64,000 nucleotides of DNA, taken from assembly GCF_029395475.1 (NCBI RefSeq), contig NZ_CP113917.1, positions 930,001-994,000 on the forward strand, in the 5' to 3' direction. The notes under the pieces were generated by a model. It was given only the letters and a program-made list of their open reading frames with translations. It searched no databases and was not told the DNA's origin. Each line of letters starts with the position of its first letter. Within the stretch, counting starts at the first letter, position 1. This DNA is from Bifidobacterium sp. ESL0775. GTDB lineage: Bacteria; Actinomycetota; Actinomycetes; Actinomycetales; Bifidobacteriaceae. This document shows, in pieces, positions 9,425 to 58,944 of this stretch. The position numbers and the translations under genes are program-made.

Positions 9425-9463
9425 ACGATAAAATCAAATTATTTCAAGTGACAGATTATCTTG

Positions 9464-9589: not shown

Positions 9590-10078
9590 ATGGCAGAAGA
9601 AAACAAGCCGGAACCGGAGAGCTTTAAGCTCGATCACACCAAGGTGAAGGCACCGTATGTGCGCTTTATCGACACTGAGACAGGCGAGAAGGGCGACGTG
9701 ATCTCCAATTACGACCTGCGCCTCGTGCAGCCCAACGAGAACGCCATTCCGACCGGCGGCCTGCACACCATCGAGCACACCATCGCGGTGCTGCTGCGCG
9801 AGCGCATTCCGGGCTATATCGACTGCTCGCCGTTCGGCTGCCGCACCGGTTTCCACCTGCTGACTTGGGGCGAGCACAGCACCGAGGACGTGGCGAAGGC
9901 GCTCAAGGAATCGCTCGAGTTCATCGCCTACAAGGCGACTTGGGACGACGTGCCGGCCACGGACATCAAGAGCTGCGGCAACTACCGCGACCACAGCCTC
10001 TTCACCGCCAAGGAATGGTGCAAGAAGATTCTCGATGAAGGCATCAGCTCCGATCCGTACGTGCGCAAGGTGGTCTGA
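9590..10078 (+). CDS. luxS: S-ribosylhomocysteine lyase
   Basis: Converts S-ribosylhomocysteine to homocysteine and DPD, the autoinducer-2 precursor, as part of methyl-cycle recycling. It is 162 aa, typical for the family. Metal ligands are visible as H59 and H63 in LHTIEH (with catalytic E62) and C129 in SCGNYRDH; the catalytic cysteine corresponds to C84 in FGCRTGF. AAAGGAA upstream supports ATG 9590. A strong hairpin follows at 10120-10172. It returns to high-GC codon use immediately after the AT-rich toxin-antitoxin region. The metN system at the right end of the window belongs to the same methionine economy, but no linkage is implied. Confidence 0.98.
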
Positions 10079-41199: not shown

Positions 41200-41298
41200 A
41201 GCAGCGATTATTGATTTGTAATGTATTCGAATGATTCGAGTAGCATAAATGAAAAGAAGTTAGAGTCGAAAGCGGCAGTGCCGTGCAAAGGAGCGATG

Positions 41299-41607
41299 AT
41301 GACAGGGACGTCAGATGAGATAAAACAGCAGCAAAAGTTCACTTGGGTTCCGGTTTATGAAGCCATTGCCACCAAGCTTTTGGATTATCGAGATAATCAC
41401 GGCGTGCTGGTCGACATCGCTGAGCAGGTTCTGGGAGAGCGGTTTGATGATATGGATCCGTTCACCTTCTTCGCGATGTTCAACGGAAAACGGAGTCAAC
41501 GTGATAAACGCATTGATGCTATCAGAATCATTCTTTCGCGTTTTGGAATTCAGATGACATTGCCAACAGATTTTGGGGGAGTTCCTGTTAATAATCCGCA
41601 GCTTTGA
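41299..41607 (+). CDS. N-terminal part of McrB-like protein A, cut by in-frame TGA
   Basis: 102 aa ending at TGA 41605-41607. The sequence (FTWVPVYEAIATKLLDYRDN, DMDPFTFFAMFNGK, FGIQMTLPTDFGGVPVNN) matches the N-terminal domain of larger McrB-type AAA+ restriction proteins, in which the same polypeptide runs on without a break. The TGA is in the same reading frame as the following gene (41653-43290), with 15 open codons between, so the two are pieces of one 664-codon gene. ATG 41299 has AAAGGAG 5 nt upstream; 41221 is a possible but unsupported earlier start. It is either a nonsense-inactivated or split mcrB, or the TGA is read through at some level. Confidence 0.75.
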   Translation: MTGTSDEIKQQQKFTWVPVYEAIATKLLDYRDNHGVLVDIAEQVLGERFDDMDPFTFFAMFNGKRSQRDKRIDAIRIILSRFGIQMTLPTDFGGVPVNNPQL

Positions 41608-41652
41608 GAATATTGGGATGGAAGCAACGACATAGTTGAACATGATTGGGAC

Positions 41653-43290
41653 ATGTTCGAAGCTGCTATACGTTATGCAGATGGTGGCTCGGAGATCTCA
41701 ACGCGTCAAGATTTTATTGATTCGTTTGATCGGATGAGAGCTCACAAATTCATTGCTGATGCAAGGCAGACAATGGGTCTGTTTTGGATGCGGCCTAACA
41801 CTTTTCTGTCCTTGGACAGTAATACAAAACAGTATATTGATATGGAATTTCAGGTCAGACCTGTATCGCCGATTGACGGTAAAGGTTATTTTGATGTTTT
41901 GCACAAGGTGAAAGAATCGACTATGGAATCTTTTCCTGAGATTTCATTGAAAGCATGGAATCGTGATGGGTGGTTTCCAGATGAGGAGCATCGAAATACA
42001 GGTCTCACGGCAACAGAATGGGAGTCGGTACTTGCCAATCCCGATCTAACGACGACGAATAATCTTATTACGCTTGCAAGCCTTGTAGAGCATCCTCAGG
42101 GGATGACATGCGTTGAATTGGCTGATCTGTATAAACGAGAGCCGAATTTTTATTCGAGCAACGTCTCTACCTTGAGCGAGAAAGTCGCGAAAAAATTCGG
42201 TTTAGCGGATGTCGACCAGCAAAGCGGAACTTTTGAGTATTGGACAGTAATGTGTCTTGGTCGGAAGGTCAAAAAACCTCGGTCGGGAAATTATGAATGG
42301 AAATTGCGCTCTGAAGTGATTGAAGCGCTTAACAGCATGGATCTTTCGAGATATCCGCTGTATACCGATAAACCAGAGACTTCAGCTGAGTCCGAGTCCT
42401 CGCCGATAAGCAAAGCCGAGGTGGAACCGTATGGCGACAAGGATTTCCTGGATGATGTCTTTTTGACTTCTTCTGATTTGGATGAGCTGAAAGAGTTGCT
42501 AGAACGCAAGAAAAACGTCATTCTGCAAGGTGCTCCGGGCACTGGCAAGACATTCACCGCAAAACGGCTTGCGTGGGACATATTGGGGCATAAAGATGGT
42601 GGGCATATCGAATTCGTGCAATTCCATCAGAATACGAGCTACGACGAATTCGTCTATGGTTACCGGCCGACCGAGGATGGCAAGGGATTTGAAAAGGTGC
42701 CGGGTGTTTTCGTCCAGTTTGTGCGGAAAGCTATTGCCCATCCTGATGAGCCATATTTCTTCATTATCGACGAAATCAATCGGGCCAACATCTCCAAGGT
42801 TTTCGGTGAGCTATTGATGACCATTGAAGCCGACCACCGTGGTCCTGACGAGAGCGTGACTCTTACGGTTTCGCAAGAACCGTTTTATGTGCCCCAAAAC
42901 CTGTATATCATCGGCATGATGAACACAGCCGACCGTGGTCTGGCACTTATCGACTATGCGTTGAGGCGGCGGTTCACATTCTTTACGATGAAACCTGCAC
43001 TTAAAAACAAGAAATTCACTGATTTAATCGAGGGGCGTCATGATTCGAAATTATCAGCACTGGTAAAGGCAGTCGGAAAGCTCAACGACAAGATTGCGGG
43101 TGATGAAACCTTAGGCGAAGGTTTCTGCATCGGTCACAGCTATTTCTGCCAAAACAACGATGACAACGATCCGAATTTCGCGAGTTCAATTGTCAGTTAC
43201 GAACTCATTCCTTTGATTCAAGAATACTGGTTTGATAACCCTAAGAAAGTCAAAGAAGAATGTGATGCTCTTACGAATAGTGTGAAATAG
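41653..43290 (+). CDS. mcrB: McrB-like AAA+ restriction protein A (motor part)
   Basis: 545 aa. N-terminal part (1-110) continues the domain begun at 41299. A winged-helix-like domain (about 118-236) is shared with protein B. Then the AAA+ motor: Walker A GAPGTGKT (293-300), FHQNTSYDEFVYGYRP, Walker B FFIIDEINRAN, and sensor MNTADRG. Protein A has only a short Ser/Glu linker (about 237-262) where B carries an EVE domain. With McrC it would form a nucleotide-driven translocase that cuts modified or foreign DNA. ATG 41653 has no convincing ribosome binding site, so translation by readthrough of, or reinitiation after, TGA 41605 has to be considered. Codon use is AT-richer than in neighbouring purine genes. 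Confidence 0.88.
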   Translation: MFEAAIRYADGGSEISTRQDFIDSFDRMRAHKFIADARQTMGLFWMRPNTFLSLDSNTKQYIDMEFQVRPVSPIDGKGYFDVLHKVKESTMESFPEISLKAWNRDGWFPDEEHRNTGLTATEWESVLANPDLTTTNNLITLASLVEHPQGMTCVELADLYKREPNFYSSNVSTLSEKVAKKFGLADVDQQSGTFEYWTVMCLGRKVKKPRSGNYEWKLRSEVIEALNSMDLSRYPLYTDKPETSAESESSPISKAEVEPYGDKDFLDDVFLTSSDLDELKELLERKKNVILQGAPGTGKTFTAKRLAWDILGHKDGGHIEFVQFHQNTSYDEFVYGYRPTEDGKGFEKVPGVFVQFVRKAIAHPDEPYFFIIDEINRANISKVFGELLMTIEADHRGPDESVTLTVSQEPFYVPQNLYIIGMMNTADRGLALIDYALRRRFTFFTMKPALKNKKFTDLIEGRHDSKLSALVKAVGKLNDKIAGDETLGEGFCIGHSYFCQNNDDNDPNFASSIVSYELIPLIQEYWFDNPKKVKEECDALTNSVK

Positions 43291-43292
43291 CC

Positions 43293-44345
43293 ATGTGTGC
43301 CGAAGACCATGTCGTCATCAAGAACATCTATTATATGATGACTTATGCGTTCATAGCATTGAAATTCAAGCAATATGCCAGGTTGGAAACCGAGGATTTC
43401 GACACTATCAATGATTTGATGGCGGCGATTCTCAACATCGGAATAACTACGCAGCGAAAGCATGGTTTCGAACGCGAATACCAACCCGAGTGCGAGCGGT
43501 TGCATGGTATTCGCGGCCGAATCGATATGTCTGACACGGCACGTTTGAGGATGGCAGGGAGTAACAAGATTTCATGTGTTTATGACGATTTATCCGCCGA
43601 TACCTATAAGAACCAGATACTCAAGACCACGGCCCGGGTGCTCATTGGCGAATCAGACGTGGATGCTGACAGAAAACGAAAATTGAAACGATGCCTTATC
43701 AGTATGCAGGACATACAATTCGTCGATATCCATCATGTTGATTGGGCAAGATTGCGGTTCGACCGTAATAATGCCAGTTATCAACTGCTGATGAACGTAT
43801 GCCGTATGGTTTTGGAAGGCAAACTGCTCGCACAAACCCAGGGCAGAAGGAGACTGGCCAAATATACCGCCCAGAAACTCAGTAACTTGTATGAGAGATT
43901 TGTGCTTGAATATTATCGACAGTGCTTTGCCAGTCAGCGTGGAATGACGGTAAGAGCAAAGGAGATTGACCGCCATGTAGGGTCTGATGAACCCAGGTTT
44001 TTGCCCCGGTTACAGAGTGATGTCACCCTTCATCAAGGAAACAAAACGCTTATCATCGATGCCAAATGTTATGGGAAGATTCTTCAAATACATTACAATA
44101 AGGAAATCTATAACCGGGACAACATCAATCAGATTCAGAGTTATGTCTTACATGAAGCATATGGGATTAGTGACGAGGTCAGTGGCATGCTGCTTTACGC
44201 GATGACGGATAATGATGAACAGCATAACGAGACATGGGAGGAGCTGGATCATCGTTTTTCCGTCCGTACCCTCAACCTTAATCAGGATTTTCAGGATATT
44301 GCGGCCGAACTTGACGGCATCGCCAATCAGTGGTTACTGCCCTAG
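43293..44345 (+). CDS. mcrC: McrC-like endonuclease subunit A
   Basis: 350 aa, McrC family. It begins with the conserved VIKNIYYMMTYAF block and ends with a PD-(D/E)xK nuclease: D243 (LQSDVTL) and D256-A-K258 (LIIDAKCYG). It starts 2 nt after the mcrB stop, so the genes are one operon. It is closely related to the McrC at 56511-57635 over its whole length (same RGRIDMSDTARL/RGHIDMPATARL and NNASYQLLMNVC/NNASYVLLMNVC blocks). Its stop is only 3 nt from the stop of convergent purD, leaving no room for a terminator between them. Confidence 0.9.
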   Translation: MCAEDHVVIKNIYYMMTYAFIALKFKQYARLETEDFDTINDLMAAILNIGITTQRKHGFEREYQPECERLHGIRGRIDMSDTARLRMAGSNKISCVYDDLSADTYKNQILKTTARVLIGESDVDADRKRKLKRCLISMQDIQFVDIHHVDWARLRFDRNNASYQLLMNVCRMVLEGKLLAQTQGRRRLAKYTAQKLSNLYERFVLEYYRQCFASQRGMTVRAKEIDRHVGSDEPRFLPRLQSDVTLHQGNKTLIIDAKCYGKILQIHYNKEIYNRDNINQIQSYVLHEAYGISDEVSGMLLYAMTDNDEQHNETWEELDHRFSVRTLNLNQDFQDIAAELDGIANQWLLP

Positions 44346-44348
44346 AGT

Positions 44349-45689
44349 TTACTGATTTTTCGTTTCGGAGCTGTCCGGAACAACGGCCTTCAGTGCCTTG
44401 GCGCCGATATCGCGGCGGTAGAAGAAACCGGGGGTGTCTAGGGTATCCAACGTGCTGTAGATCTTGGACTGGGCGGCTTGGAGGGTCGGGGCGATGGTTT
44501 CGTAGACCAGGACGCGGCCGGAGGATGAGACCAAACCGGTTGAAGAGGCTGGGTCGGCGGTTTTCTGGCCTTCGGGATGCTTTGGCGTTTTCACTCCGGC
44601 GTAATAGATATGGGAATCCGCGTCGGTGGGAATGGCCGGAACGGGTGTGCCTTCCTTCGGCTTGCCGGGGTAGCCGTCGGATGCCAGCACCACGCCGAGG
44701 GCCGTGGCATCCGTGCGCCAGGTGAAGGTCGGCGATTCATCGTTGAGGATGGCGTTGATGGCCTTGCCAAGGTCGCTCGTGAGTAGCGGCAACACGGCTT
44801 CCGTCTCGGGATCGCCGAAACGGGCGTTGAACTCGATGACCTTCGGACCTTCGTCGGTGGCGATGAGACCGGCGTAGAGGATACCGGTGAAGGGGATACC
44901 TTCTTCGGCCAGCGCTTCGAGCGTTGGACGGACGATGGTATTGATGGCCTGTTCAACCGTGTCATCGCTGATTTGTGGAACCGGGCTGTAGGCTCCCATG
45001 CCGCCGGTGTTCGGGCCTTTGTCGCCGTCATAGGCGCGTTTGTGGTCCTGCGAGATGGGCATCGGCCAGAATTCGGTGCCGTTGACGAAGCTCATCAGCG
45101 AGAATTCCTGGCCTTCAAGGAATTCCTCTACCACTACTTTGAGGTCGGTGTTGCCAAAACGATGCTCGACGAAAATGTCTTCGAGGGCACCGAGCGCCGT
45201 CTGTGTGTCGAGCGCGACGGTCACGCCCTTTCCTGCGGCCAGCCCGTCGGCCTTGATGACGATGGGCGCCCCATGTTCCATGACATATGCCGCGGCCGCA
45301 TCATAGTCGGTGAAGGTACGATAGGTGGCGGTCGGGATGGCGTGGCGAGCCATGAGCTGCTTGGCGAAATCCTTGGAACCTTCGACCTGGGCGGCGGCAC
45401 GGGTGGGTCCGAACGCCTTGAGCCCGACCTCTCGGAAATCGTCGACGATGCCATGGATCAGCGGCACCTCAGGCCCGACGAGCGCCCAATCGTAACCGCT
45501 CGATTGCATGAACTCGATCAACGCGGCGTGGTTCGACGGGTCGATGTGGGTGGTGCGGATGCCGTCGAGCTCCATGCCAGGATTGCCGGGAGCGACGGTG
45601 ACTTCATCGACGCTCGCGCCTTTGAGCAGCGTCGCGGCGATGGCGTGTTCGCGCGCGCCCGATCCGATGACCAAAACCTTCATACCCAT
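44349..45689 (-). CDS. purD: Phosphoribosylamine-glycine ligase
   Basis: ATP-grasp enzyme (446 aa) making GAR from phosphoribosylamine and glycine. It shows MKVLVIGSGAREHA at the N-terminus, the VIKADGLAAGKGV grasp lysine block, and FNARFGDPETEAVLPLL. ATG 45689 was preferred over the longer frame (45722) because AAGGA lies 6 nt upstream. There is a small Pro/Thr/Ser insertion near the C-terminus (KTPKHPEGQKTADPASSTGL). It is the last gene of the operon purL-F-M-D, 113 nt after purM. It meets mcrC-A tail-to-tail. Confidence 0.98.
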   Translation of the reverse strand: MGMKVLVIGSGAREHAIAATLLKGASVDEVTVAPGNPGMELDGIRTTHIDPSNHAALIEFMQSSGYDWALVGPEVPLIHGIVDDFREVGLKAFGPTRAAAQVEGSKDFAKQLMARHAIPTATYRTFTDYDAAAAYVMEHGAPIVIKADGLAAGKGVTVALDTQTALGALEDIFVEHRFGNTDLKVVVEEFLEGQEFSLMSFVNGTEFWPMPISQDHKRAYDGDKGPNTGGMGAYSPVPQISDDTVEQAINTIVRPTLEALAEEGIPFTGILYAGLIATDEGPKVIEFNARFGDPETEAVLPLLTSDLGKAINAILNDESPTFTWRTDATALGVVLASDGYPGKPKEGTPVPAIPTDADSHIYYAGVKTPKHPEGQKTADPASSTGLVSSSGRVLVYETIAPTLQAAQSKIYSTLDTLDTPGFFYRRDIGAKALKAVVPDSSETKNQ

Positions 45690-45802
45690 TTCGTGTCCTT
45701 CCGCAGTTTTTGTCTTATTCAATTATGTTGCTTGGCCTGGTTTTACGCCAATACTTAGTGATTTTCGGGATTCTTGATGTCTCACACATGGGGGGACGGA
45801 AA

Positions 45803-46843
45803 TCATTCGAATCGCACGCGTTGCCCGTCGCTGGGTTCGGGAACGATCGAGCCGATGACATGGCCGGTTTCGCCGACGGTTTCAAGCGTCTCAAGCGCTT
45901 GCTTCACGTTCGCCGAATCGATGGCCAAGACCATGCCGATACCCATGTTGAAGACGTTGAACATCTCCTTGTGGTCGATGCTACCGGCACGTTCGATGAC
46001 GTCGAAAATCGGCGAGACGCTCCACGTGCCGACCTTGATCGAGGCTGCCAGACCGTCGGGAATCATGCGGGGGATGTTCTCGATGAACCCGCCGCCGGTG
46101 ATGTGTGCGACGCCCTTGATAAGTCCTGCGGCGAAAAGCGGCTTGAGCGCCTTGACGTAGATTTTCGTCGGGGTCAAGAGGACGTCGCCCAGCGTCGCAT
46201 CGCCGAGCTCGTCAAGTTTCGTGTCGATGCTGTATCCGGCTTCGTGGAACAGGGCTTCGCGCACCAGCGAGAATCCGTTGGAATGGACCCCCGAGGATTC
46301 CAGACCGATCAGCGCATCACCTTCGCGGATACCCGAGCCGTCAACAATGGCAGACTTTTCGGCGACGCCAACAGCGAATCCAGCCAAATCGTATTCGTCT
46401 TGCGCATACATGCCGGGCATTTCCGCCGTCTCGCCGCCGATCAGCGCCGACTCCGCCTGAACGCAACCGTCGGCCACGCCGGAGACGACCTGTTCCAGAA
46501 GAGCGGGATCGTTCTTGCCACAGGCGATGTAATCGAGGAAGAACAGCGGCTGGGCGCCTTGGGCGGCGATGTCGTTGACGCACATCGCCACGCAGTCGAT
46601 GCCGATGGTGTCGTGCTTGCCGGCCATGTTCGCGACCATGAGCTTGGTGCCCACGCCGTCGGTGCCGGAGACCAGCATCGGCTCCTTGTATCCGAGGCTG
46701 GCCAGGTCGAAAAGCCCGCCGAAACCGCCGATGCCGCCGACCACGCCGGGACGGTTGGTCCGTGCCACGTGCGATTTGATGCGGCGGACGACCTCGTAGC
46801 CGGCCTCGACGCTGACTCCCGCTTGTTCGTATGCTTGAGGCAT
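45803..46843 (-). CDS. purM: Phosphoribosylformylglycinamidine cyclo-ligase
   Basis: AIR synthetase (346 aa), which closes the imidazole ring of FGAM using ATP. Conserved GVDVxAGYE-like start ([14 protein letters not shown]), [10 protein letters not shown], the [15 protein letters not shown] metal site and [10 protein letters not shown] are visible. AAGGAGGG 6 nt before ATG 46843 is strong. Its start lies 1 nt after the purF stop, so the two are translationally coupled. Confidence 0.98.
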
Positions 46844-46844
46844 G

Positions 46845-48419
46845 CTATGCCCTCCTTGTGGTGGTGGCTGTGGCGCTTATGTTATTTGTATGACTTTTAC
46901 TGTTGCCATCATGGCTGGATGGTTCGATGTCGCGGTATTCGTTGTCCACGTATTGGCTTTCGTATTTGGCGAAATGCGGCAGGCGCTCGCGTTCCTCGGG
47001 TTTGAGCGAAGCGAGGAATTCGACTTCGTAATCGTCCAAGGCGGTGGGGTAGTCGCCGTTGAAGTAGGCGACGCACAGGCCTCCGTAGGGCGCGTCGGCG
47101 TTGAGGCCGATCGATTCGATGAGGCCGTCGAGGCTCAGGAATTGCAGGGAATCCGCGCCGATGTATTTCCGAATCCCCTCGACGCTCATGCGCGCGGCGA
47201 TCAGTTCGCGGGTGGTGGAGATGTCAATGCCGTAGAAGCATGGGTATTTCAGCGGCGGCGAGCTGATGCGCATGTGCACCTCGGCCGCGCCCGCTTCGCG
47301 CAGCAGTTGGACGATGCGCTTGGAAGTGGTGCCACGCACGATGGAGTCATCGATGACGATGATCCTTTTGCCTTTGACCACGCCTCGCACCGCCGAAAGC
47401 TTCATCCGAACACCCTGTTCGCGTAGTTCCTGCGTGGGTTGGATGAACGTGCGGGCGATGTATTGGTTCTTTATCAGTCCCATCTCATTGGGCAAGCCGC
47501 TGGCTTCGGCGTAGCCGGAAGCGGCGGAAAGCGAGGAATTCGGCACTCCGATGACCATGTCGGCGTCGACCGGCGTTTCCTTGGCAAGGCGCGCGCCCAT
47601 GCGCTTGCGGGCGGAGTGGACGTTGACGCCGTAGATATTGGAATCCGGGCGGGCGAAGTAGATGAACTCCATCGAGCAGATGGCCAGTTGGGTTTTGTCG
47701 GTGTATGACATGATGTGATAGCCGTCATCATCCACGACCACGATTTCACCAGGACGAATATCGCGTACGAGTTCTGCGCCCACCGTGTCCAACGCGCAGG
47801 TCTCGCTGGCCAGCACATAGGCCCCGTTGCTCATCCGTCCTAGCGAAAGCGGGCGGAAGCCGTTCGGGTCAAGCGCCCCGATCATCGCGTTCTCGGTCAT
47901 CAAAAGGTAGGCGAAACCGCCATGAACGATGTTCAGCGCCTCCTTGAGCTTCTCGATGAATGTCGGCTTGCTCGAGCGGCGGATCAGGTGCATCAGCACT
48001 TCGGTGTCGGAATTCGAGTGGAAGATGGCGCCTTCGTTCTCCAATTTGGCGCGTAATGCAATGCAGTTGGTAAGGTTGCCGTTGTGGGCCAAGGCGAAAT
48101 CGCCATCGTGGAAACGGAAGATGAACGGCTGGATGTTGTCGATGCCGCTGGAGCCGCTGGTGGCGTAGCGGACGTGCCCGATGGCCCGGTCGCCGGTGAG
48201 CCGTTCGATCTCGTGCTCGTCGTGGAACACTTCGGTCAGCAGTCCCAGCCCGCGATGGCCGATGAGCCTGCCGTGGTCATTGGAGACCATGCCGGCGCCT
48301 TCCTGCCCGCGGTGTTGCAGCGCGTGCAGGCCGAAATAGGTCAGACGCGAGGCTTCAGGATGGCCCCAGACGCCGAACAGGCCACATTCCTCGTGGACAT
48401 CCTCGAGTTCGAATGACAT
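46845..48419 (-). CDS. purF: Amidophosphoribosyltransferase
   Basis: Committing step of purine synthesis (524 aa): PRPP + glutamine to phosphoribosylamine. The N-terminal nucleophile hydrolase has an 11-residue propeptide before C12 ([11 protein letters not shown]), with [14 protein letters not shown] close by. The C-terminal phosphoribosyltransferase carries the PRPP loop [12 protein letters not shown]. Four later cysteines that would mark the [4Fe-4S] type were not fully assigned. It starts 1 nt after the purL stop with GAGG inside the purL end. The C-terminal tail is Ser/Thr/Asn-rich. Confidence 0.98.
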
Positions 48420-48420
48420 C

Positions 48421-51400
48421 TCAGGCCTCGCTTTCGTCGGTCATGTTGACGGGATTGCTCAGTTCGGTTGCCTCGGTAGCCTTTGCCGTGACATCGGTGA
48501 AATAGCGTACGCCGGCCTCGAAAATCGGCTGGAACTCGCGGCCGGGAACGTTCAAATACAACCCGTCGCCACGGCGCTCGGAATGGCCCATCTTGCCGAG
48601 CACACGGCCGTCCGGGCTGGTCAGCGCCTCGACGGCGTCCATGGAGCCATTGGGATTGTCGGCAAGATCCATGCTGGCGTTACCGTTTTCGTCCACATAT
48701 TGCGCGGCGATCTGTCCATTGTCGGCGAGCTGCCTGATTTGTTCAGGAGTGGCCACGAACCGGCCTTCACCGTGGGAGATCGGGATGGTGTAGACATCGC
48801 CGACTTCGCTGCCAGCCATCCAAGGTGACAGATTGCTTGACACCCGTGTGCGTACTAGACGGCTTTGATGCCGTCCGATGGTGTTGAAGGTCAGAGTCGG
48901 CTGGTTTTCGCTGGGTTCGACGATGTCGCCGTAAGGAACCAGGCCGAGTTTGATCAGCGCCTGGAATCCGTTGCAGATGCCAAGCATCAGGCCGTCACAG
49001 TTGCCCAGCAGATCGCGCACGGCATCGGCCACAGCCGGGGCGCGGAAGAACGCGGTGATGAATTTCGCCGATCCGTCCGGTTCATCGCCGCCGGAGAAGC
49101 CGCCGGGAATCATGACGATTTGGCTCGCCGCGATTTCCTCGGCAAGTCTGCGTGACGATTCTGCCACGGCCTCAGGGGAGAGGTTGTTGACGATCAGCGT
49201 ATGCGGGTCGGCGCCTGCCGCCTCGAACGCGGCTGCGGCGTCATATTCGCAGTTGTTGCCGGGGAACACGGGAATGAGTACGCGCGGCTTGGCCTTGAGT
49301 GGGTTGCCGATGTAGAAAGCCTTTCGGCCTTTGCGGTAACTGATGGTTTCGGCGGCAGTTTCATCACGAGCCGGAGTTGGCGTGGGAAGGCCATTTGCAG
49401 TCGTTTGAACGGTTTCTGCAACGGCTTGTGAAAGACCGTTCTGATTGTCGACGCCATGGCTGCGATAGGGGAAGATCTCCTCCATCGCGGATTCCCAGAC
49501 ATCCTGCACTTCGCCAAGGTCGACGGTCTCGCCGGCCGCGGCGAATTCGTAGGTGGCCGTGGTCGTGCCGATGACTTCGACATCGACTTGTTCGGTGCTC
49601 TGTGGCACCTCTGCGCCTTCGGCCAGCTCCACGATGAAGCTTCCATACGCAGGCTCGAACAAGGCATCAAGGTTGATGTCGTTGTTGAGTCTGACACCGA
49701 GTTGGTTGCCTAGGGCCATCTTGAACAATGCTTCGGCGCTCGCGCCATAGCCGGGTGTCGAAATCGCGAGAGCCTGGTCGGCGGTGGTCAGTTGCTCAAC
49801 GGTCGCCATGGTTCCAAGCAAATCGTCGGGATTGGGGATAAGCCGGTAAGCGCTTCCGGTGCCACCCGTGTTTTCGAAGGCTTCGCCGTATTCATACCGT
49901 TTCGGCGCGATGCGAACGATGTGATGCCCGTAGCCCTTGAATTCCGGCGATACCGTACGGCTCATGTCTCCGGTCGACACGGCGAAGGAAACCAGTGTCG
50001 GCGGCACGTCCAATTCCTTGCCATCCTGTTCGAAGCTGCCGCTCATCGAGTCCTTGCCGCCGATGGCTCCGACCTTCAAGTCAAGCTGGGCGCTCAGCGC
50101 GCCAAGCAATGCCGCGGTTGGTTTGCCCCAACGTTCGGGGTCTTGGTGCAGCCTGCCGAAATACTCTTGGAAGCTCAGATAGGCGTTCTCTCTGGTGAAG
50201 CCGGTCGCGACGAGCTTGCAGATGGATTCCACCACGGCCAGATAGGCTCCGGCGAACTGGTTGCGTTCCGTGATATACGGGTTGAAGCTCCATGCCATCG
50301 CGCTTGCTGTGCTCGTCAACCCACCTGGAACCGGGAGTTTGGCGACCATGGCCTGGCTTGGTGTCAGCTGCTTGCGTCCGCCGAACGGCATCAGCACAGT
50401 GCCGGCACCGATGGTGGAATCGAAACGTTCGGCAAGGCCTTTGTTGCCGGCGACGTTGATATCGCTGACCAATGAGGTCAAACGTTCCTTAAGATCGCCG
50501 GATTCCCAAGCTTCGGGAACCGAATAATCCTCGGCCGGCAGCACATGGACATTCTGGTGTTTGGCCGCGCCATTCGAGGCGAGGAATTCGCGGGAAAGGT
50601 CGACGATTCGCTTACCTCGCCAATCCATGACCATACGAGGCTCGGCGGTGACGGTGGCGATGACCGTGGCCTCAAGGTTCTCCTCACGGGCGTAGCGTAG
50701 GAACTCGTCCACATCCTCGGCCGCCACATCGACGGCCATGCGTTCCTGCGATTCGGAAATGGCCAGTTCCGTGCCGTCCAATCCCTCGTATTTCTTGGGG
50801 ACTTTATCAAGGTCGATTTCCAACCCATCGGCGATTTCGCCGGTCGCTACGGAAACGCCGCCCGCTCCGAAATCGTTGCAGCGCTTGATGAGTACGCTGG
50901 CATCGTGCCGACGGAACAACCGTTGCAACTTGCGTTCGACGGTCGCGTTGCCCTTCTGCACCTCGGCTCCCGATTCAACCAAACTGTCGGTATCCTGCGC
51001 TTTGGAAGCGCCGGTCGCGCCTCCGATGCCGTCTCGTCCGGTGCGTCCGCCGAGCAGAATTATTTTGTCGCCCGGTGTCGGGGTTTCACGGCGTACATTC
51101 TCCGCCGGAGCCGCGCCGACTACCGCCCCGACTTCCATACGCTTGGCGACGTATCCGGGATGATAGATTTCATCGACCTGTCCGGTCGCCAGCCCGATCT
51201 GGTTGCCGTATGAGGAATAACCCTGTGCGGCGGTGGTGACGAGTTTGCGTTGCGGCAGCTTGCCTTCCAACGTCTGTGAGACGGGAACGCGCGGGTCGCC
51301 AGCCCCGGTGACGCGCATGGCTTGATAGACGTAGGCACGGCCGCTCAGGGGATCGCGGATGCAGCCGCCGATGCAGGTGGCCGCCCCGCCGAACGGCTCG

Positions 51401-52380
51401 ATTTCCGTGGGATGGTTGTGCGTCTCGTTTTTGAAGAGGAAGAGCCAATCCTGCGGTTCGCCGTCGACGTCCACCTTGATTTTGACGGTGCAGGCGTTGA
51501 TTTCCTCGGACTTGTCGAGTCCGGTCAGCTCGCCTTTGGCCTCGAGCTCCTTGGCGCCGATGGTGCCCATGTCCATAAGCGTGACTGGCTTGTTGGTGCG
51601 CCCCAGATCCTGCCGGACCTTGAGATAGCGCTCGAATGCGGCCTTGACCACGCTGTCGTCGATATCGACCCGCGTCAGCTCGGTGCCGAAGGTCGTGTGG
51701 CGGCAGTGGTCGGACCAATAGGTGTCGATCACCTTGATTTCGGTGATGGTCGGTTCGCGGTGCTCGCCGCGGAAATAGGTTTGGCAGCACTTGGCGTCGC
51801 CCAGATCCATCGCCAGCCCACGCTGGTCGATGAAACGTCGCAATCCGGCATCGTCAAGCTCGTTGAAGCCATCAATCACTTCGACATCGGCTGGAACCTT
51901 GACTTGGTTTTCCAAGGTCTCGCGCGTCTCAAGTCCAGTTTCGTGCGCGTCGACAGGATTGATCACATAGCGTTTGATGGCCGCAACGTCCTCGGGGGAG
52001 AGGTCGCCGTACAACGCATAGATTTTCGCCGTCCGCACATCCGGTCGTGTTCCTTGGCTGAGCAATTGGATGCACTGGCTGGCCGATTCCGCCCGCTGGT
52101 CGAACTGTCCTGGCAGATACTCAACCGCGAAAACCTGCGCGCCTTGCAAATCAGGCAGGCTCCGAGCGGCCGTATCCACTGGCGGTTCACTGAACACGGT
52201 AGGAATGGCCGCTTCGAACAGCTCGGAATCCAATCCCTGGGCATCGTAGCGGTTGATGATGCGAATGCGTTCGAGTCCCGTGAGCCCGAGCACATCCCGC
52301 AGCTCGCCCGCGAGATTGGAGGCTTCGACGTCGAAGCCGGGTTTCTTTTCTACGTACACACGAAAAACTGGTGAAAGCAC
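48421..52380 (-). CDS. purL: Phosphoribosylformylglycinamidine synthase, large single-chain form
   Basis: 1319-aa PurL, containing in one chain the PurS-like N-terminal part ([23 protein letters not shown]), the two-lobed synthase ([42 protein letters not shown]) and a C-terminal glutaminase ([15 protein letters not shown], catalytic-cysteine block [24 protein letters not shown]). Bifidobacteria use this long form where many Gram-positives have separate PurS, PurQ and PurL. The GTG start at 52380 has AAGGAA 5 nt upstream. It is preceded by a possible promoter and, further upstream, by the purC terminator. Confidence 0.98.
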
Positions 52381-52422
52381 TGAAGTTCCTTAGCACTGCT
52401 GGTCAAGAAGTTGAAATGAGGA

Positions 52423-52451
52423 AGTATGGAAAACGAGAAACGATGCGGCAA
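52423..52451 (-). promoter_or_regulatory. Putative purL promoter
   Basis: Minus-strand TTGCCG (52446-52451), 17-bp spacer, CATACT (52423-52428). It lies between the purC terminator and the purL GTG, so purL-F-M-D could be transcribed independently of purC. Confidence 0.4.
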
Positions 52452-52457
52452 CCAAAA

Positions 52458-52494
52458 ATCGCTCGCATACCAACGATTCAGGTATGCGAGCGAT
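52458..52494 (-). terminator. Rho-independent terminator after purC
   Basis: Perfect 14-bp stem: on the minus strand ATCGCTCGCATACC (52494-52481) and GGTATGCGAGCGAT (52471-52458), followed by TTTTT. It interrupts an otherwise continuous pur gene order and could act as an attenuator. Confidence 0.88.
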
Positions 52495-52497
52495 ATG

Positions 52498-53247
52498 TCA
52501 TTCGACCTTGACGCCTCGGCGGTCGGCCAAATCAAGCAGTCGTTTGTGGATTTCCTCATAGGCGGGAATGATGTCGCCGAGATCCCGCCGGAAGAGGTCC
52601 TTGTCGAGATGCTCGACTTTGCCGGACCTGTCCTTCAAATCCCAGAGCCTGCAGGTGTCGGGCGTGATCTCGTCGGCCAGGACGATCTCACCATCCTTGT
52701 TCTTGCCCTCCTCGATCTTGAAATCGACCAGTTTCACATCGATGTCGCGGAAAATCTTGGTGAGCTTTTCGTTGATGTCGAGGGCCTGCCGAGAGACTTC
52801 GGCCATGTCCTCGTCGGTGGCGAGGCCAAGTGCCACGATGCCATCGACGTTGATGAACGGGTCGTGCAGTTCGTCGGATTTGTAGCAGAACTCGAGAATC
52901 GGACGCTTGAGTTCGGTGCCTTCCTCAATGCCGTAACGCTGGGCGAAGGAACCGGCAGCGGTGTTGCGCATGATGATCTCGAGCGGGAACATGGAGATTT
53001 TCTCATTGAGCTGTTCGGTGTCGGAGACGCGGCGGATGAAATCCGTTTTGACGCCCTCGGCCTCCAAAAGCCTGAAGAGAACCGTCGTGATGCGGTTGTT
53101 GAGGCTTCCCTTTCCTTGAATCTGGGCCTTTTTCGCGCCGTCGCCGGCGGTGGCCTGATTCATATATTCGACCCAGAGAACATTCGGGTCATCCGTTGAA
53201 TAGAGCTTTTTGGCTTTGCCCTTGTAGAGCATGTCCAGTTTCTCCAT
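52498..53247 (-). CDS. purC: SAICAR synthetase
   Basis: Joins aspartate to CAIR (249 aa). It shows the [16 protein letters not shown] loop, [50 protein letters not shown] (metal/ATP site) and [13 protein letters not shown] 53247 has GGAAGG about 7 nt upstream; the longer frame to 53313 is not conserved. A strong terminator lies only 4 nt after its stop, so purC may be largely monocistronic. Confidence 0.98.
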
Positions 53248-53503
53248 GATTCGCCTTCCCGTAGAGTAACGAGATTGATTGAATGAGGTGAACTTACAAC
53301 AAAAATATACCAACTGAAGCCAACAATTTCGTTCGTCGTCGTGCGCAAAAATGCGACAACAGATACATTATTTATATGGAAGCGTTTTATCTCTTACGTC
53401 ATTTCCCAATAAATTCGGCCATTGTAAATTTTCTGTTACGACTTATTTCCTCGGTAAAAGAAATAATTCCGCGTTTGGATAGATACCATTATGACAAAGT
53501 TAT

Positions 53504-54430
53504 TTAAGAAACTTGCCAAATTTTTTCTTGTTGCCAATTCGCGGGGATACCCATCGAACGAGCGACATCTACTTGTGGAATGTCGCCAGGTATGCTCGAC
53601 AAAACTTGTAAAAGCCCTCGTAAGCTTGTTTCGGCATTGAGGCTTGACAGTAAGAATACGAGAACTGCAATGCCGCCATACATTTTTGTCGATGACTCAA
53701 TTGCATGTTCAAGTAAAGATATCGCGGGTGTGATACTTGGAGTGACGATGAGTGAACGGTTGTATAGCCGACCATGGTGGGCGCAGAGATTTCGAATGAA
53801 ATTGAGACAGTTAAGCCATGATTTGAGAGTCGCCTGATCGGCACCATAAGTAATAGCGATTTGTGTTCGCATCTGGTAAGGAAGAAAACTGTATAGGTTC
53901 CGGAGCATTGCGAATTCCATTATTTCGGTTGCTGCCCAAATCGGTATTTCTCCGTCGTAGTCGTGCCTGAAATGTTTAACAAAGTCCTCTCTTGAGTGAT
54001 TTTGACGCTCGCTAAATTTGGTGATGAATCTGCCATATTCGATAGCGTTCAAAGCAGGATCCAAAACTTTTGGTTTTAAATAAAGGAATGGATCTTGTTT
54101 CCCAATGGTATAGGCTAAACGAGAGCGTAAGGAAATCTCAAGACTTGCTATAGCTGAAAATAGTTGGCTGCGTAGTTGTTGGTCAAAATTATATATCCGT
54201 AATACGTCTCTAAAGTCAGAGCCGTACATGAAGTCGCTGGAACGAGAATGTGTTGTCTTGTCGATTTTCCGAAACATGTACCAGAAGCCGCTGAGACGGT
54301 AATATCCGATTTGAGAAAGTTCGTTACGGTATGGTTCAACGTTTTGCATGCCGTGTGCTTTGAGTTTGGTGCATTGCTCGTCCAGACTCAGCCATGGCTT
54401 TTCGTAATGAGGATGGTTCCCTGTCGTCAT
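53504..54430 (-). CDS. Abi_2-family abortive infection protein (AbiD/F-like)
   Basis: 308 aa. Abi_2 pattern: KPWLSLDEQCTKLKAHGM at the start, IGYYRLSGFWYMFR, then YNFDQQLRSQLFSAIASLEISLRSRLAYTIG, PIWAATEIMEFAML, and the HEPN-like RNLCAHHGRLYNR motif near residue 215 (Rx4-6H), a probable ribonuclease site. Such proteins abort phage infection by toxic RNase activity. GGGAG lies 6 nt before the ATG. AT-rich codon use and its position between purC and McrBC module B mark it as part of an accessory defence patch. Confidence 0.9.
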   Translation of the reverse strand: MTTGNHPHYEKPWLSLDEQCTKLKAHGMQNVEPYRNELSQIGYYRLSGFWYMFRKIDKTTHSRSSDFMYGSDFRDVLRIYNFDQQLRSQLFSAIASLEISLRSRLAYTIGKQDPFLYLKPKVLDPALNAIEYGRFITKFSERQNHSREDFVKHFRHDYDGEIPIWAATEIMEFAMLRNLYSFLPYQMRTQIAITYGADQATLKSWLNCLNFIRNLCAHHGRLYNRSLIVTPSITPAISLLEHAIESSTKMYGGIAVLVFLLSSLNAETSLRGLLQVLSSIPGDIPQVDVARSMGIPANWQQEKIWQVS

Positions 54431-54780
54431 CGTCGGCTCCCGGAAAAGAAAAAATGATGACCGCCCCTGAGCCGTTTACACGGCATCAGGACGGCCTTGC
54501 ATTTATCAATCTATCTTATAATTAATGATTTTGCAAGTTTATTGTAGTTAAGGGCCGAGTTTAGGTAACTGATTGATACGGCTGTGCTGTAATATGCCAG
54601 GTTTGCCGTGAAGTGGTCTTGTGATACTGAAACCGTCGTTTTGCGAATCGTCAATTGTCGGGTTTCCAAGAACCGGAATTTAGTACATAAGTCTTTTGTA
54701 AACGATAAGAATTTATTGCATAAGTCTTTTGTGAACGATAAATTTAGTATTTGTTGAAATAAACAAGCAATGGAGCGGTT
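54431..54780 (+). other. Intergenic region between abi and mcrB-B
   Basis: 350 nt, AT-rich, no gene seen. It contains the direct-repeat pair at 54686-54741 and the presumed mcrB-B promoter: TTGCAT (54717-54722), 17-bp spacer, TAAATT (54740-54745). Both promoter elements overlap the second repeat. Confidence 0.5.
54686..54741 (+). repeat. Direct repeat pair upstream of mcrB-B
   Basis: Two 23-bp copies starting at 54686 and 54719 (CATAAGTCTTTTGT, then A or G, then AACGATAA) differ at one base. Their start-to-start distance is 33 bp, about three helical turns. The second copy overlaps the predicted promoter. They are candidate binding sites for a regulator of the restriction module. Confidence 0.75.
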
Positions 54781-56514
54781 ATGAGTGAGAACGGCATAGA
54801 AGAGGACGAATCAGTATGGGTTGGGCATGACCCGGGTATCACCACTGAGCATTGGGTAAGCCTGCTTCATGACTCATCCATGGTTACAGACAATAACCTC
54901 ATTACTCTCAGATGTCTTTACGAACAGCCTAATGGTCTTTCCTGTGCTCAGTTGGCTGGCGAATATGGTCGGGATTGGCATTTTTATCTCAGCAATATTT
55001 CTACATTAGGTGAAAAAGTAGCAAAAAATATTAATCTAATAAAGCCCGATCAGAACGAAAGAACTTTCGAATACTGGACGGTACTTTGCTTGGGCAAGTC
55101 AACGGATGAAGGGCAACATGGATATTTCGTCTGGAAACTGCGCCCTGAACTTCGTGACGCACTTGCACAGATGGATTTGTCGATGTATCCGTTGCGTGCT
55201 TCGGAAAGCGAAGGCTCAGACTCTGTCGCGTACTGGTGGTTGGTGGCCAGTCCTAAACAGTGGAAAATCTCCTCGCTAAAGATCGATGAAGAACAGAATT
55301 ATACAGTTCATAACGAGAACGGCAATTTGCGGCGACTCGCTGCCAACTTCAAAGCCATTAAGAAAGGTGACCGGATCGTTGGCTATGAAGCGAGTCCGAC
55401 CAAGGCGGCGCTCGCGATATTCGAGGTAAGCCGTCAGCCGAGTGATGAACTGTTGTATTTCAAGAAACTTCGCGATTTTGACGAGCCTGTTCCGTTCTCC
55501 TCAATCAAAGCGAACCCGGAATTGTCTGGCATGGAATTTTTTAGGAACATGAACGGGAGTCTTTTCAAACTTTCCAAGGCGGAATATGAAGCGTTGGAAG
55601 AGATGGCTGGTGAGGATGATGTTTCGCCTTTGGTTGAGAAAACGCCGGAACTATACAATGACCGTGATTTCCTCAATGAGGTGTTTCTTTCAAAGGATGA
55701 CCTCAAAGTGTTGAAAGGTCTGTTGCGGCGTAAACACAACCTGATTCTGCAAGGGGCGCCGGGCACAGGCAAGACATTTGCCGCCAAGCGACTGGCCTAT
55801 GCCATGATGGGTGAAAAGGACGAAAGTCGTATTCAGTCCGTTCAATTCCACCAGAATACCAGTTATGACGAATTCGTCTATGGATATCGTCCCAATGACG
55901 ATGGCAATGGCTTTGCACCTGTGCCGGGGATTTTCACGCGGTTCGTGCAGAAGGCCAAGCGCGATAGGGACAGGAAATATTTCTTCATCATCGATGAGAT
56001 TAACCGTGCCAACATCTCCAAAGTGTTCGGCGAATTGCTCTCTACCATCGAGTCCGACCACCGTAGCTCGGATGATGCTGTCGTTCTTTCGATTACAGGC
56101 CAGCCGTTCTACGTTCCGGACAATTTTTATATCATTGGCATGATGAACACGGCGGATCGCGGGCTAGCCCTGATTGATTACGCTCTGCGTCGTCGTTTCG
56201 CGTTCTTTACGATGAAGCCACAGCTTGATAACGCGAATTTTAAAAACCGTGTTGGCAATCTTGGCGATGCAAGGTTGTTGAATCTTGTAAAGGCCGTGCG
56301 TGAGTTAAACAAGGTGATTGTCGAGGATGATGCTTTGGGTGAAGGCTTCTGCATCGGTCATAGCTATTTTTGCGATAATCAAACTAAGGACGGTGAAGGC
56401 CTGGCTGCCTCCATTATCGAGTTCGAGTTGGTTCCATTGATTAAGGAATATTGGTTCGACAATAAGAAGCAGGTTAAGACACAGTCCGATTTGCTGCGAA
56501 AAGCGATTCAATGA
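54781..56514 (+). CDS. mcrB: McrB-like AAA+ protein B with EVE domain
   Basis: 577 aa. An N-terminal winged-helix-like domain (about 20-138) matches the central domain of protein A. An EVE domain follows (about 149-275: YWWLVASPKQWK, GDRIVGYEASPTKAALAIFEVS), a PUA-like fold that reads modified bases. The AAA+ motor has Walker A GAPGTGKT (325-332), FHQNTSYDEFVYGYRP, Walker B FFIIDEINRAN and sensor MNTADRG (455-461). GGAG upstream supports ATG 54781. It lacks the N-terminal FTWVP-type domain of module A. With the overlapping mcrC-B it is predicted to be a type IV, modification-dependent restriction motor. Confidence 0.92.
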   Translation: MSENGIEEDESVWVGHDPGITTEHWVSLLHDSSMVTDNNLITLRCLYEQPNGLSCAQLAGEYGRDWHFYLSNISTLGEKVAKNINLIKPDQNERTFEYWTVLCLGKSTDEGQHGYFVWKLRPELRDALAQMDLSMYPLRASESEGSDSVAYWWLVASPKQWKISSLKIDEEQNYTVHNENGNLRRLAANFKAIKKGDRIVGYEASPTKAALAIFEVSRQPSDELLYFKKLRDFDEPVPFSSIKANPELSGMEFFRNMNGSLFKLSKAEYEALEEMAGEDDVSPLVEKTPELYNDRDFLNEVFLSKDDLKVLKGLLRRKHNLILQGAPGTGKTFAAKRLAYAMMGEKDESRIQSVQFHQNTSYDEFVYGYRPNDDGNGFAPVPGIFTRFVQKAKRDRDRKYFFIIDEINRANISKVFGELLSTIESDHRSSDDAVVLSITGQPFYVPDNFYIIGMMNTADRGLALIDYALRRRFAFFTMKPQLDNANFKNRVGNLGDARLLNLVKAVRELNKVIVEDDALGEGFCIGHSYFCDNQTKDGEGLAASIIEFELVPLIKEYWFDNKKQVKTQSDLLRKAIQ

Positions 56515-57635
56515 CTGTGGGTGTCAAAGAAGCGATGGATGGTGAAAAGCAGCGGACCACTGAAGACAATGTGGTCATCAAGAACATCTACTATATGATG
56601 ACCTATGCGTTCAAGGCTTTGCGACTCGACGATTATCGGCGTTTGGCAACTGAGGATTTCGATCATATCGACGACCTACTGGCAGCCATTCTGGCTATCG
56701 CGATTGGCACACAGCGTCGCCGTGGTTTCGAGCGTGAATATTTGCCGGTCCATGAAAATCTTCATACGGTTCGTGGCCATATCGATATGCCGGCAACCGC
56801 TCGGTTGCAAATGGCTGGGTACAACGGGCTGTCGTGCGTCTACGACGTTTTTTCGGAGAATACCTACAAGAACCGTGTGCTCAAGACTACAGCACTGTTG
56901 CTGATTGGCCGCAGGGATGTTGATACGGTGAGGAAAACCGATTTGAAGCGATGTCTGATTGCCATGCGTGATGTCGGCGAGGTGGATATTCATCGCGTTG
57001 ATTGGGCGAGGTTACGTTTCCATCGCAACAATGCGTCGTATGTACTGTTGATGAATGTCTGTCAGATGGTCATCGAGCGAGAGCTGTTCAATCAGGATGA
57101 AGGTAATCGGTCGATGCGATACCGGTCGAAGCGAAAACTAAGCAAGCTCTACGAGAAATTTGTACTCGAATACTATCGAGTGCATCATCCGGAACTGTCC
57201 GCCAGCGCCAAAACCATTAATCGTCAGGCTCAGGGGAATACAGAATTTCTGCCGAGACTGCTAACTGACGTTACTCTGTCTAAAGGTAAGCGGGAACTTA
57301 TCATCGACGCAAAATGTTACGGCCATATTCTCGATGTCCATTACGACAAGCCCATCTACGCGCCAAAACATATCAATCAGATTCAAAGTTATGTGCTGCA
57401 TGAGGCATTCGGCAACGACAAGTTGGTGGATGGTATGCTGCTCTACGCGAAGGTGGGTGATGAGGATGGGCATAATGAGACTTGGTCAGAGCTTGGGCAT
57501 CGCTTCTCGGTCCGTACGCTGGACCTTAACCGCGATTTTGCTGCCATAGCTGCCGATCTTGACGACATTGCGGTTAGGTGGATCGAGGGAACTGGAGCAA
57601 AGTCGGCGGGTGCTATTCTTCTGGAGCCACAGTAG
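56511..57635 (+). CDS. mcrC: McrC-like endonuclease subunit B
   Basis: 374 aa. Overlaps mcrB-B by 4 nt (ATGA). Conserved VIKNIYYMMTYAFKALRL block, long helical middle, and C-terminal PD-(D/E)xK nuclease with LLTDVTLSKGKRELIIDAKCYG. About 20 extra N-terminal residues precede the conserved start compared with the module A homologue. Its last 23 nt overlap the end of convergent purT on the other strand, so neither transcript has a terminator before entering the partner gene. Confidence 0.91.
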   Translation: MTVGVKEAMDGEKQRTTEDNVVIKNIYYMMTYAFKALRLDDYRRLATEDFDHIDDLLAAILAIAIGTQRRRGFEREYLPVHENLHTVRGHIDMPATARLQMAGYNGLSCVYDVFSENTYKNRVLKTTALLLIGRRDVDTVRKTDLKRCLIAMRDVGEVDIHRVDWARLRFHRNNASYVLLMNVCQMVIERELFNQDEGNRSMRYRSKRKLSKLYEKFVLEYYRVHHPELSASAKTINRQAQGNTEFLPRLLTDVTLSKGKRELIIDAKCYGHILDVHYDKPIYAPKHINQIQSYVLHEAFGNDKLVDGMLLYAKVGDEDGHNETWSELGHRFSVRTLDLNRDFAAIAADLDDIAVRWIEGTGAKSAGAILLEPQ

Positions 57636-58893
57636 TATCGAGTGCATCCGTTACGGTGGTGGCTTTGGAGCGGGCCTCGGTTTCATCGCTGCCAACTGCC
57701 AATGCGACGGCCATACGGCGGTGGCCGTTTACTGTGGGCTTGCCGAAGATGCGTAGGTCGGTATTCGGTTGTGATAACGCTTCGGGAACGTTGGTGAACG
57801 TGACTTGGCCGTGTCCCGTGACCACTACGGCGTGACTGGCTGCGACTTCGCCGTTTTTAAGATTTAGGGAGACACTTTCTTCGGTGACGGGAATGCCGAG
57901 AACCGCTCTTGCGTGCAGGGTGAACTCGCTTAAATGTTGGGAGATCATGGTCACCATGCCGGTGTCGTGCGGACGAGGGGAGACCTCGTTGAAAAGAACC
58001 GCGCCGTTCTTCAGAACGAACAGTTCCACGCCGAAAACGCCCCAGCCGTGTTCACCGTCTTTGTGGGCGATATCGACCAATCCGCTGACGGCCTTGCGGG
58101 CGATGGTTTGCGCTTTTTCCAGAACTGCCGGATTCACTTGTGCAGGTTGCCACGATTCGCGGTAGTCGCCGTCTTCCTGTCGTTGGCCGATGGGGGAGCA
58201 GACCACGATGCCGGCGCTGGAAGAAACGGTGAGCATGGTCAGTTCATAATCAAGTGGCGCGAACGCCTCGACGACGACACGCGAGATAACGCCGTCTTTG
58301 GCATCTCGACGTCCGGTTTGCGCTTCTTGCCAAGCTGTTTCGAGATCGTTATCCGAACGTAATACGGATTGGCCGTGTCCTGAAGAACTCATCACCGGCT
58401 TGACCACGCACGGATAGCCGACGGCTTGTGTCCTGGTTTTGAATTCGGCGAACGAACCGGCAAAACGGTACGGGGTGGTCGGCAGATTAAGTTTTTTGTG
58501 CATCAACGTTCGTAAAGCTTCGCGATCCATGCAAATCGATGCGATGCGGGAGCTGGGCACGACTTGGATACCATTTGAAGCTGCTTTGGCCAATTCGGCG
58601 GTCGCGATGGCCTCGATTTCGGGGATGATGATGGAAGGCTTGACTTCTGCAATAAGACCATTGAGCGCTGTGGTATCCGTCATATCGAGTACACGGCTTT
58701 CCTGCGCGATCTGCATGGCCGGCGCGCGCTCGTAGCTGTCGGCTGCGAAGACGAACGCCCCAAGCCGTGTCAGCCCGATGGCGATTTCACGTCCCAATTC
58801 GCCAGAACCCAGTAGCAGCACGCGCGTTTGCTGTAAAGGTGCAGGGTTTCCCAGCGGATAATCGACGGATGATGATGCAGTTTCGGCGCTCAT
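57613..58893 (-). CDS. purT: Formate-dependent GAR transformylase
   Basis: ATP-grasp enzyme (426 aa) that makes formyl-GAR from GAR, formate and ATP. It shows VLLLGSGELGREIAIGLTRLG, the grasp region PCVVKPVMSSSGHGQSVL, and the metal site FGVELFVLKNGAVLFNEVSPRPHDTGMVT. ATG 58893 was chosen because conservation starts here; the reading frame stays open far upstream through the divergent glycosyltransferase gene only by compositional bias. It fits with formate supply from PFL (pflA) and transport by FocA. It overlaps mcrC-B by 23 nt at the 3' end. Confidence 0.97.
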   Translation of the reverse strand: MSAETASSSVDYPLGNPAPLQQTRVLLLGSGELGREIAIGLTRLGAFVFAADSYERAPAMQIAQESRVLDMTDTTALNGLIAEVKPSIIIPEIEAIATAELAKAASNGIQVVPSSRIASICMDREALRTLMHKKLNLPTTPYRFAGSFAEFKTRTQAVGYPCVVKPVMSSSGHGQSVLRSDNDLETAWQEAQTGRRDAKDGVISRVVVEAFAPLDYELTMLTVSSSAGIVVCSPIGQRQEDGDYRESWQPAQVNPAVLEKAQTIARKAVSGLVDIAHKDGEHGWGVFGVELFVLKNGAVLFNEVSPRPHDTGMVTMISQHLSEFTLHARAVLGIPVTEESVSLNLKNGEVAASHAVVVTGHGQVTFTNVPEALSQPNTDLRIFGKPTVNGHRRMAVALAVGSDETEARSKATTVTDALDTTVAPEE

Positions 58894-58944
58894 GCTTTCA
58901 TTCTCGCATGAGATAGCCCCAGCGTAGGGGAGTAGGATGAAACC

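Follow-up and report, generated by a model that had tools for sequence, protein, structure and literature searches.

We analyzed a 64,000-nucleotide stretch of the genome of Bifidobacterium sp. ESL0775 (contig NZ_CP113917.1, positions 930,001 to 994,000 of the forward strand; this whole stretch is called the window and positions are counted within it) and identified two related mcrBC gene pairs, module A (41299-44345) and module B (54781-57635), that flank the purine operon. Module A encodes an McrB with an N-terminal domain (N1), a central domain and a GTPase motor, without an EVE domain, followed by McrC. Module B is intact and encodes a central domain, an EVE domain, the GTPase and McrC. 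The explanation that we favor, with a probability of roughly 0.7 for the whole of it, is that A and B are two old, related McrBC lineages that occupy separate variable sites next to the purine operon. Both modules would function in type IV (modification-dependent) restriction. An earlier sequence-only reading had listed both modules under the interval 41299-57635; two mcrBC modules do lie there, but the interval is not a single unit, since an AbiD gene and host purine genes spanning about 9 kb (44349-53313) separate them. The modules contain the following features.

41299..41607, plus strand: 5' part of mcrB-A, with the first half of the FTWVP-type sensor N1, which an in-frame TGA (41605-41607) cuts off; the listed open reading frame starts at 41221
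41608..43290, plus strand: remainder of mcrB-A in the same frame (second N1 half, central domain, GTPase motor); open reading frame from the ATG at 41653
41995..42363, plus strand: central domain of A (own profile, E 6e-42)
42289..42468, plus strand: EVE-less junction and linker of A (codons 331-390)
42424..43275, plus strand: GTPase (AAA+) motor of McrB-A, with GAPGTGKT, FFIIDEINRAN and MNTADR
43293..44345, plus strand: mcrC-A, nuclease subunit, with SDVTL...IIDAK and family matches
54781..56514, plus strand: mcrB-B, intact, 577 aa (open reading frame, family matches)
54829..55197, plus strand: central domain of B (own profile, E 4e-45)
55231..55605, plus strand: EVE domain of B, about residues 150-275 (Pfam, own-profile and PDB profile matches)
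55651..56502, plus strand: GTPase motor of McrB-B (family match, own profile, motifs)
56511..57635, plus strand: mcrC-B, nuclease subunit, with TDVTL...IIDAK; it shares 23 bases with the 3' end of the purT-like gene

Both McrB proteins were matched by AAA_5 (E 3e-26 and 2e-25) and by the NCBIfam McrB family (E 3e-78 and 7e-75), and both McrC proteins by Pfam McrBC (E 1e-28 and 8e-25) and NCBIfam McrC (E 3e-88 and 3e-85). Since the NCBIfam bit scores lay under the curated cut-offs (264 and 253 against 637 for McrB; 296 and 286 against 338 for McrC), the window proteins are relatives and not equivalogs of the E. coli proteins. Walker A, Walker B and MNxxD motifs were present in both McrBs. Each mcrC adjoins its mcrB and encodes a Pfam McrBC region with a PD-(D/E)xK-type catalytic motif, which we take to be the SDVTL/TDVTL...IIDAK residues. 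PADLOC matched the McrBs in the motor region only and matched neither McrC. By BLASTP, A and B were 59% identical over 327 aa of the motor, 49% over 128 aa of the central domain and 62% over 348 aa of McrC, and the homology that had been claimed for all three was thereby borne out. The sequence-only reading had also placed an EVE domain in B and had described A as lacking EVE and B as lacking the A-type N-terminus, and our searches agreed with it on each point. Residues 150-275 of B matched PF01878 with 47.6 bits against a cut-off of 23 (E 2e-12), and in a profile search of solved proteins the region matched 2gbs (E 1e-6) and 1zce (E 7e-5), both presumably EVE proteins; the identity of this region, judged by sequence comparison, is secure. 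Scans with our own profiles detected no EVE remnant in A, a six-frame scan of the A DNA included, and no N1 remnant 5' of B. N1 had no significant match in Pfam, PDB or PADLOC, and among 396 genomes of the phylum an N1-led profile matched 2, one of which was that of the window. The central domain, which the sequence-only reading had called winged-helix-like, had no significant Pfam match, and its PDB profile search returned only ADAR1 chains (E 0.15 and 0.26, not significant), which we assume to be the Z-alpha winged helix. DUF3578, the sensor of E. coli K-12-type McrB, had no match in P0001, P0003 and P0005 up to E 0.1. To our knowledge, the ligand is not known for many McrB sensor domains.

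In a tree of 38 McrB motors, A and B fell into one 7-row clade (support 99/96), within which the A lineage (100/98) and the B lineage (100/99) were sisters. The A rows were those of the window and of the relatives G083, G088 and G089, with the window and G083 paired (99/97), and the B rows were those of the window, G090 and G091. The 38 rows were picked by hand from 99; a tree of the 99, built only quickly, contained the same 7-row group with a Shimodaira-Hasegawa-like approximate likelihood ratio support of 96. L105, whose motor is split, was left out of the 99-row tree. As to whether the two motors resemble one another more than they resemble unrelated McrBs, the result was thus in favor of the sequence-only reading. 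The nearest outgroup motors were L043 (Thermophilibacter), L072 and L053 (Coriobacteriaceae) and L048 (an actinobacterium). Recent gene conversion linking A and B within the window genome was not supported: sliding windows along the proteins revealed no long stretch of raised identity, and the divergence of EVE agrees with that of the motor. A tandem duplication was likewise not supported, since the modules occupy two separate sites about 9 kb of host genes apart and the lineages also occur apart. The closest named match of module B, among the best 80 of at least 463 relatives, was in Bifidobacterium sp. ESL0784 (93%).

The two sites could be followed through a subclade in which PurL is 89-90% identical among the window, G083, G089, G090 and G091; G084 and G092 are close. 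Site A, after purD, holds the A lineage in the window, G083 and G089, and no mcrBC was found there in the four examined genomes without this lineage (G084, G090, G091 and G092). Site B extends from purC to the purT-like gene, includes the AbiD gene and holds the B lineage in the window, G090 and G091; in G083, G084, G089 and G092 it contained no mcrBC. By McrC, the A lineage (at least 70% identity) was detected in 4 of 189 family genomes and the B lineage (61-62% to A) in 3. The sequence-only reading had proposed a survey of co-occurrence, and in these 189 genomes both lineages were present in one (G000), A alone in three and B alone in two. Within the genus, P0001 found matches in 31, P0003 in 30 and P0005 in 8 of 112 genomes at E 0.001, mostly far relatives. 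The genome of G088 (L132, C1:1463001-1483000) had no purL match anywhere; its mcrBC-A adjoins AbiD and its McrC is open, and it appears that the purine operon has dropped out there from between the two sites. A HipA_C-domain gene adjoins mcrBC-A at site A of G089 (L131, 11633-12850).

We counted sensor architectures with our own profiles in 100 McrB proteins, a sample and not a census, whose loci came from a query led by B and whose named loci are the best 80 of at least 463 confirmed relatives. Before the count, 13 of 111 open reading frames (12 loci) were dropped: 11 truncated or repeated copies, one of which was the window's own 545-aa part, re-entered as the A protein of the window, and the two pieces of L145 (G094:C120), an mcrB relative broken by an in-frame TAG. 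In place of L001 the identical protein was entered as the B protein of the window, and G045 was added. The order N2, central domain, EVE and motor, in which N2 is another N-terminal type, accounted for 50 of the 100 proteins. Central domain, EVE and motor were found in 6 (some cut short), N1, central domain and motor in 3 (the window, G088, G089), central domain and motor in 2 (G090, G045), and N1, central domain, EVE and motor in 2 (G083, L043). The remaining 37 had other combinations or the motor alone, some with an unnamed domain (PUA_G100, our label) in place of the central domain. Among the relatives, G084 encodes an 885-aa McrB with two N1 domains in tandem (L141, 8383-11040), and in the McrBs of L073, L075, L076, L079 and L082 some 150 additional residues separate the central domain from EVE.

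Sensor sets varied within each site. Site A carries N1, central domain and GTPase in G089 as against N1, central domain, EVE and GTPase in G083, and site B has the EVE form in G091 as against an EVE-less form in G090, which is otherwise B. Module A of the window thus lacks the EVE domain that its orthologue in G083 has, and B lacks the N-terminal domain that A has. All four nearest outgroup motors are joined to EVE and to an N-terminal sensor, which is N1 in L043 and N2 in L072, L053 and L048. On the 38-row tree, EVE has to change at least 5 times and the N-terminal type 9 times. With EVE joined to all four of these outgroup motors and present both in B and in the A orthologue of G083, its loss from A is likelier than its insertion into B, and the insertion into B that had been proposed from the sequence alone is probably wrong. 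G083 and B were 68% identical in EVE and 65% in the motor, and the corresponding values against L043 were 52% and 59-61%. The near agreement of EVE and motor between G083 and B fits the two having come down together from the ancestor of A and B, and gives no hint that G083 recently received EVE from B. We infer that the ancestor of A and B would have had an N-terminal sensor, a central domain, EVE and the motor; that the N-terminal sensor was then lost in B and EVE in A, where three of the four alleles are without it; and that the EVE-less form would have spread among A alleles of different species by recombination.

The DNA of mcrB-A was consistent with such an exchange. We compared it with its orthologues in G083, G088 and G089 in blocks of 30 codons. 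Blocks starting at codons 1-31 were nearest to G083 (86-90%; G089 78-84%), and those starting at codons 61-316 were far from all three (43-73%), while over the same codons G083 and G089 shared 69-84% and G088 and G089 70-97%. At the EVE-less junction (blocks from codons 331-376), the window was nearest to G089 (86-92%), with 68-78% to the EVE-bearing G083 and 76-80% to G088. From codons 391-481 it was again nearest to G083 (83-93%; G089 77-83%). The central domain of A was 57-60% identical to those of the other A orthologues, which are 76-85% identical to each other. Motor DNA grouped the window with G083 (99/98), and a group of G083, G088 and G089 was rejected by the approximately unbiased (AU) test (p 0.018; first motor part 0.029), while DNA of the middle segment placed the window outside these three (86/97). 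We read this as recombination that brought the EVE-less junction into A. The sequence-only reading had pictured domain exchange in related type IV systems. This is supported by the other sensor sets at the same sites in other species and by A being a DNA mosaic of A alleles; a recent swap between A and B was not seen.

Several points weigh against this history. The EVE-less A rows do not form one clade on the motor tree, and the genomes are too few to separate a loss of EVE from a gain with certainty. The outgroups, with N1 in one and N2 in three, leave the type of the ancestral N-terminal sensor open. Blocks from codon 556 on, at the end of the motor, were far from all orthologues (53-74%), and divergence is thus not confined to the sensors; the middle segment and the motor end may have diverged fast instead of being replaced. 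The AU test on the middle segment was not significant, and the pairing of the window with G083 was not rejected there (N1b plus central domain p 0.22; central domain p 0.07). Protein AU tests were weaker (p 0.08 to 0.17), and the groups for AU testing were chosen after a tree had been seen (the motor group after the protein tree).

A wider view, which we hold tentatively and at somewhat less than even odds, is that in this Bifidobacterium subclade McrB serves as a chassis for exchangeable sensor cassettes. N1, the central domain and EVE would be dropped and re-imported between species, by recombination within conserved flanks, at two fixed sites next to the purine operon, and A and B would be complementary survivors of a two-sensor ancestor. 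Type I systems similarly change their target through S subunits.

In module A of the window, the open reading frames 41221-41607 and 41653-43290 share one frame and are parted by the single TGA in the one assembly. The FTWVP N-terminus is therefore in frame with the rest of McrB-A, to which it had been assigned from the sequence alone, but that reading had run through the stop. The TGA lies inside N1 (profile residues 12-180 of A). A Shine-Dalgarno-like AAAGGAG stands directly 5' of the mcrB-A start, and the uninterrupted genes of G083 (814 aa), G088 (672 aa) and G089 (676 aa) begin at about the same place; the TGA counted in the G089 match belongs to the stretch 5' of that gene's start and not to the gene. 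Since the TGA should leave A without a whole N1, module A is probably inactive or altered in the window genome, and of the two modules B is probably the one at work. From a weak internal start (41653), an McrB-A lacking the first half of N1 could be made. The ratio of nonsynonymous to synonymous substitution rates (dN/dS) of the A motor against its orthologues was 0.05-0.12 (other pairs within A or within B, 0.04-0.18), and the stop thus looks recent, as would decay if it has begun. Module A might instead be merely a decaying pseudogene whose sequence difference is partly due to decay. We consider this doubtful. The stop within N1 and the far divergence of the second N1 half, the central domain and the motor end from the orthologues fit decay, but A is free of frameshifts, its frame is otherwise open, and dN/dS was below 0.25 in every computable A segment (N1b was computable against G088 only). 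Moreover, the EVE-less architecture is common to the uninterrupted G088 and G089.

It is also unlikely that EVE was gained, with an ancestor lacking EVE and separate insertions into B and G083. EVE-less forms do exist in both lineages (the window, G088 and G089; G090), the difference falls at the same linker, and the EVE-less A alleles are not joined on the motor tree. However, the four nearest outgroup motors have EVE in the same place, and the EVE identity of G083 and B, near that of the motor and above that of EVE to L043, is what joint descent predicts. Loss of EVE from A is the reading that we prefer.

Less probable again is that the TGA arose through an error in sequencing or assembly and that A is in truth uninterrupted; this would agree with the rest of the A frame being open in a single assembly, but the genome (2.26 Mb) forms a single contig, with completeness rated at 95% and contamination at 0.05%. 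That A and B are one split system, in which N1 of A and EVE of B are two sensors of mixed McrB hexamers, we regard as very improbable, given that the two lineages met in a single family genome and that N1 of A is interrupted in the window, for all the likeness of their motors and McrCs and the possible cooperation of multiple McrBC copies per island raised by Bell et al. 2024 (PMC11090510).

Under the favored explanation, McrB would be a conserved GTP-driven motor with replaceable, DNA-reading sensors N-terminal to it, and McrC the nuclease. Translocation and cutting by an McrB hexamer with McrC is the established mechanism of E. coli McrBC. In module B, modified bases in DNA entering the cell would be bound by EVE, whereupon the McrB hexamer, carrying McrC, would translocate and cut. 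Module A would work likewise through N1 and the central domain; the TGA of the window breaks its N1. The architecture, the two sites, the sister relation of the motors, the stop and the mosaic at the EVE junction were observed, and the ancestral state, the direction of loss, restriction activity and ligands are predictions.

Bell et al. 2020 (PMC7641849) describe EVE-McrB as the architecture in which EVE most often occurs in defence systems, present in nearly 300 genera, and state that these proteins often have additional domains. Module B resembles these fusions in having EVE fused to the McrB GTPase beside mcrC. It also has the central domain, which, given the additional domains reported there, is no break with the description. 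Module A, its relative in the same genome, has no EVE and falls outside the group. The McrBC system of E. coli K-12 is alike in its NxxD GTPase, McrC nuclease and two-gene operon, and the GTPase of B aligned with the solved McrB structures 7vsr, 6ut6 and 6hz4 (E near 1e-73); A and B differ from it in the missing DUF3578 match, the sub-cut-off NCBIfam scores and the other sensors. McrBs with N2, central domain, EVE and GTPase, mostly from gut Bacillota, share the order of central domain, EVE and motor with B, but carry N2 where the window has N1 or nothing, and most of their motors are about 46-57% identical to those of the window. CoCoNuTs are relatives of McrB and McrC, as are the window modules; their GTPases carry NxD according to Bell et al. 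2024 (PMC11090510), and both window proteins have NTAD (NxxD), for which reason we rejected membership. The same paper describes islands with several McrBC copies, whose function may be cooperative.

The features between and beside the modules are as follows.

44349..53313, minus strand: purD, purM, purF, purL and purC, the host purine operon, between modules A and B
53504..54430, minus strand: AbiD (Abi_2) gene, by family match; present with site B in 3 of 3 occupied genomes examined (the window, G090, G091)
57613..59853, minus strand: purT-like gene bounding site B, open reading frame as listed; relatives match only from residue 312 on

The gene given here as purL is a probable purL, named from its sequence. 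The modules and AbiD had a G+C content of 0.44-0.50, and host stretches one of 0.58-0.59; positions 8001-10000 of the window were also low (0.43, neighbors 0.57-0.59). The AbiD of the window was 64-65% identical to the AbiDs beside the B relatives in G090 and G091 and 81% to that of G088, and AbiD seems to reassort independently of mcrBC. A plasmid or phage origin was rejected for want of a close match, the best plasmid match being 43% over 97% of B (E up to 1e-60) and the best phage match 49% over 75% (E up to 1e-20). The record of phage NatCom_35866 from human faeces (PV036449.1, 7912-9195) encodes a product 49% identical to residues 143-573 of McrB-B, that is, EVE and motor.

Among the titles and abstract openings listed from the open-licence literature, we found no paper on these pur-flanking modules, and census supplements may well contain the architectures. 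Both fusions of EVE to McrB and islands with several McrBC copies have been published, and modules A and B are a well-resolved instance of a kind already known. The interesting part is the natural series with and without EVE: G083 and G089 at site A, and G091 and G090 at site B, are near relatives that differ by EVE, besides ordinary divergence, and amount to a natural deletion series. This shows how type IV systems can change their sensors while motor and nuclease stay, and it hints at which systems may limit the transfer of DNA into these bifidobacteria.

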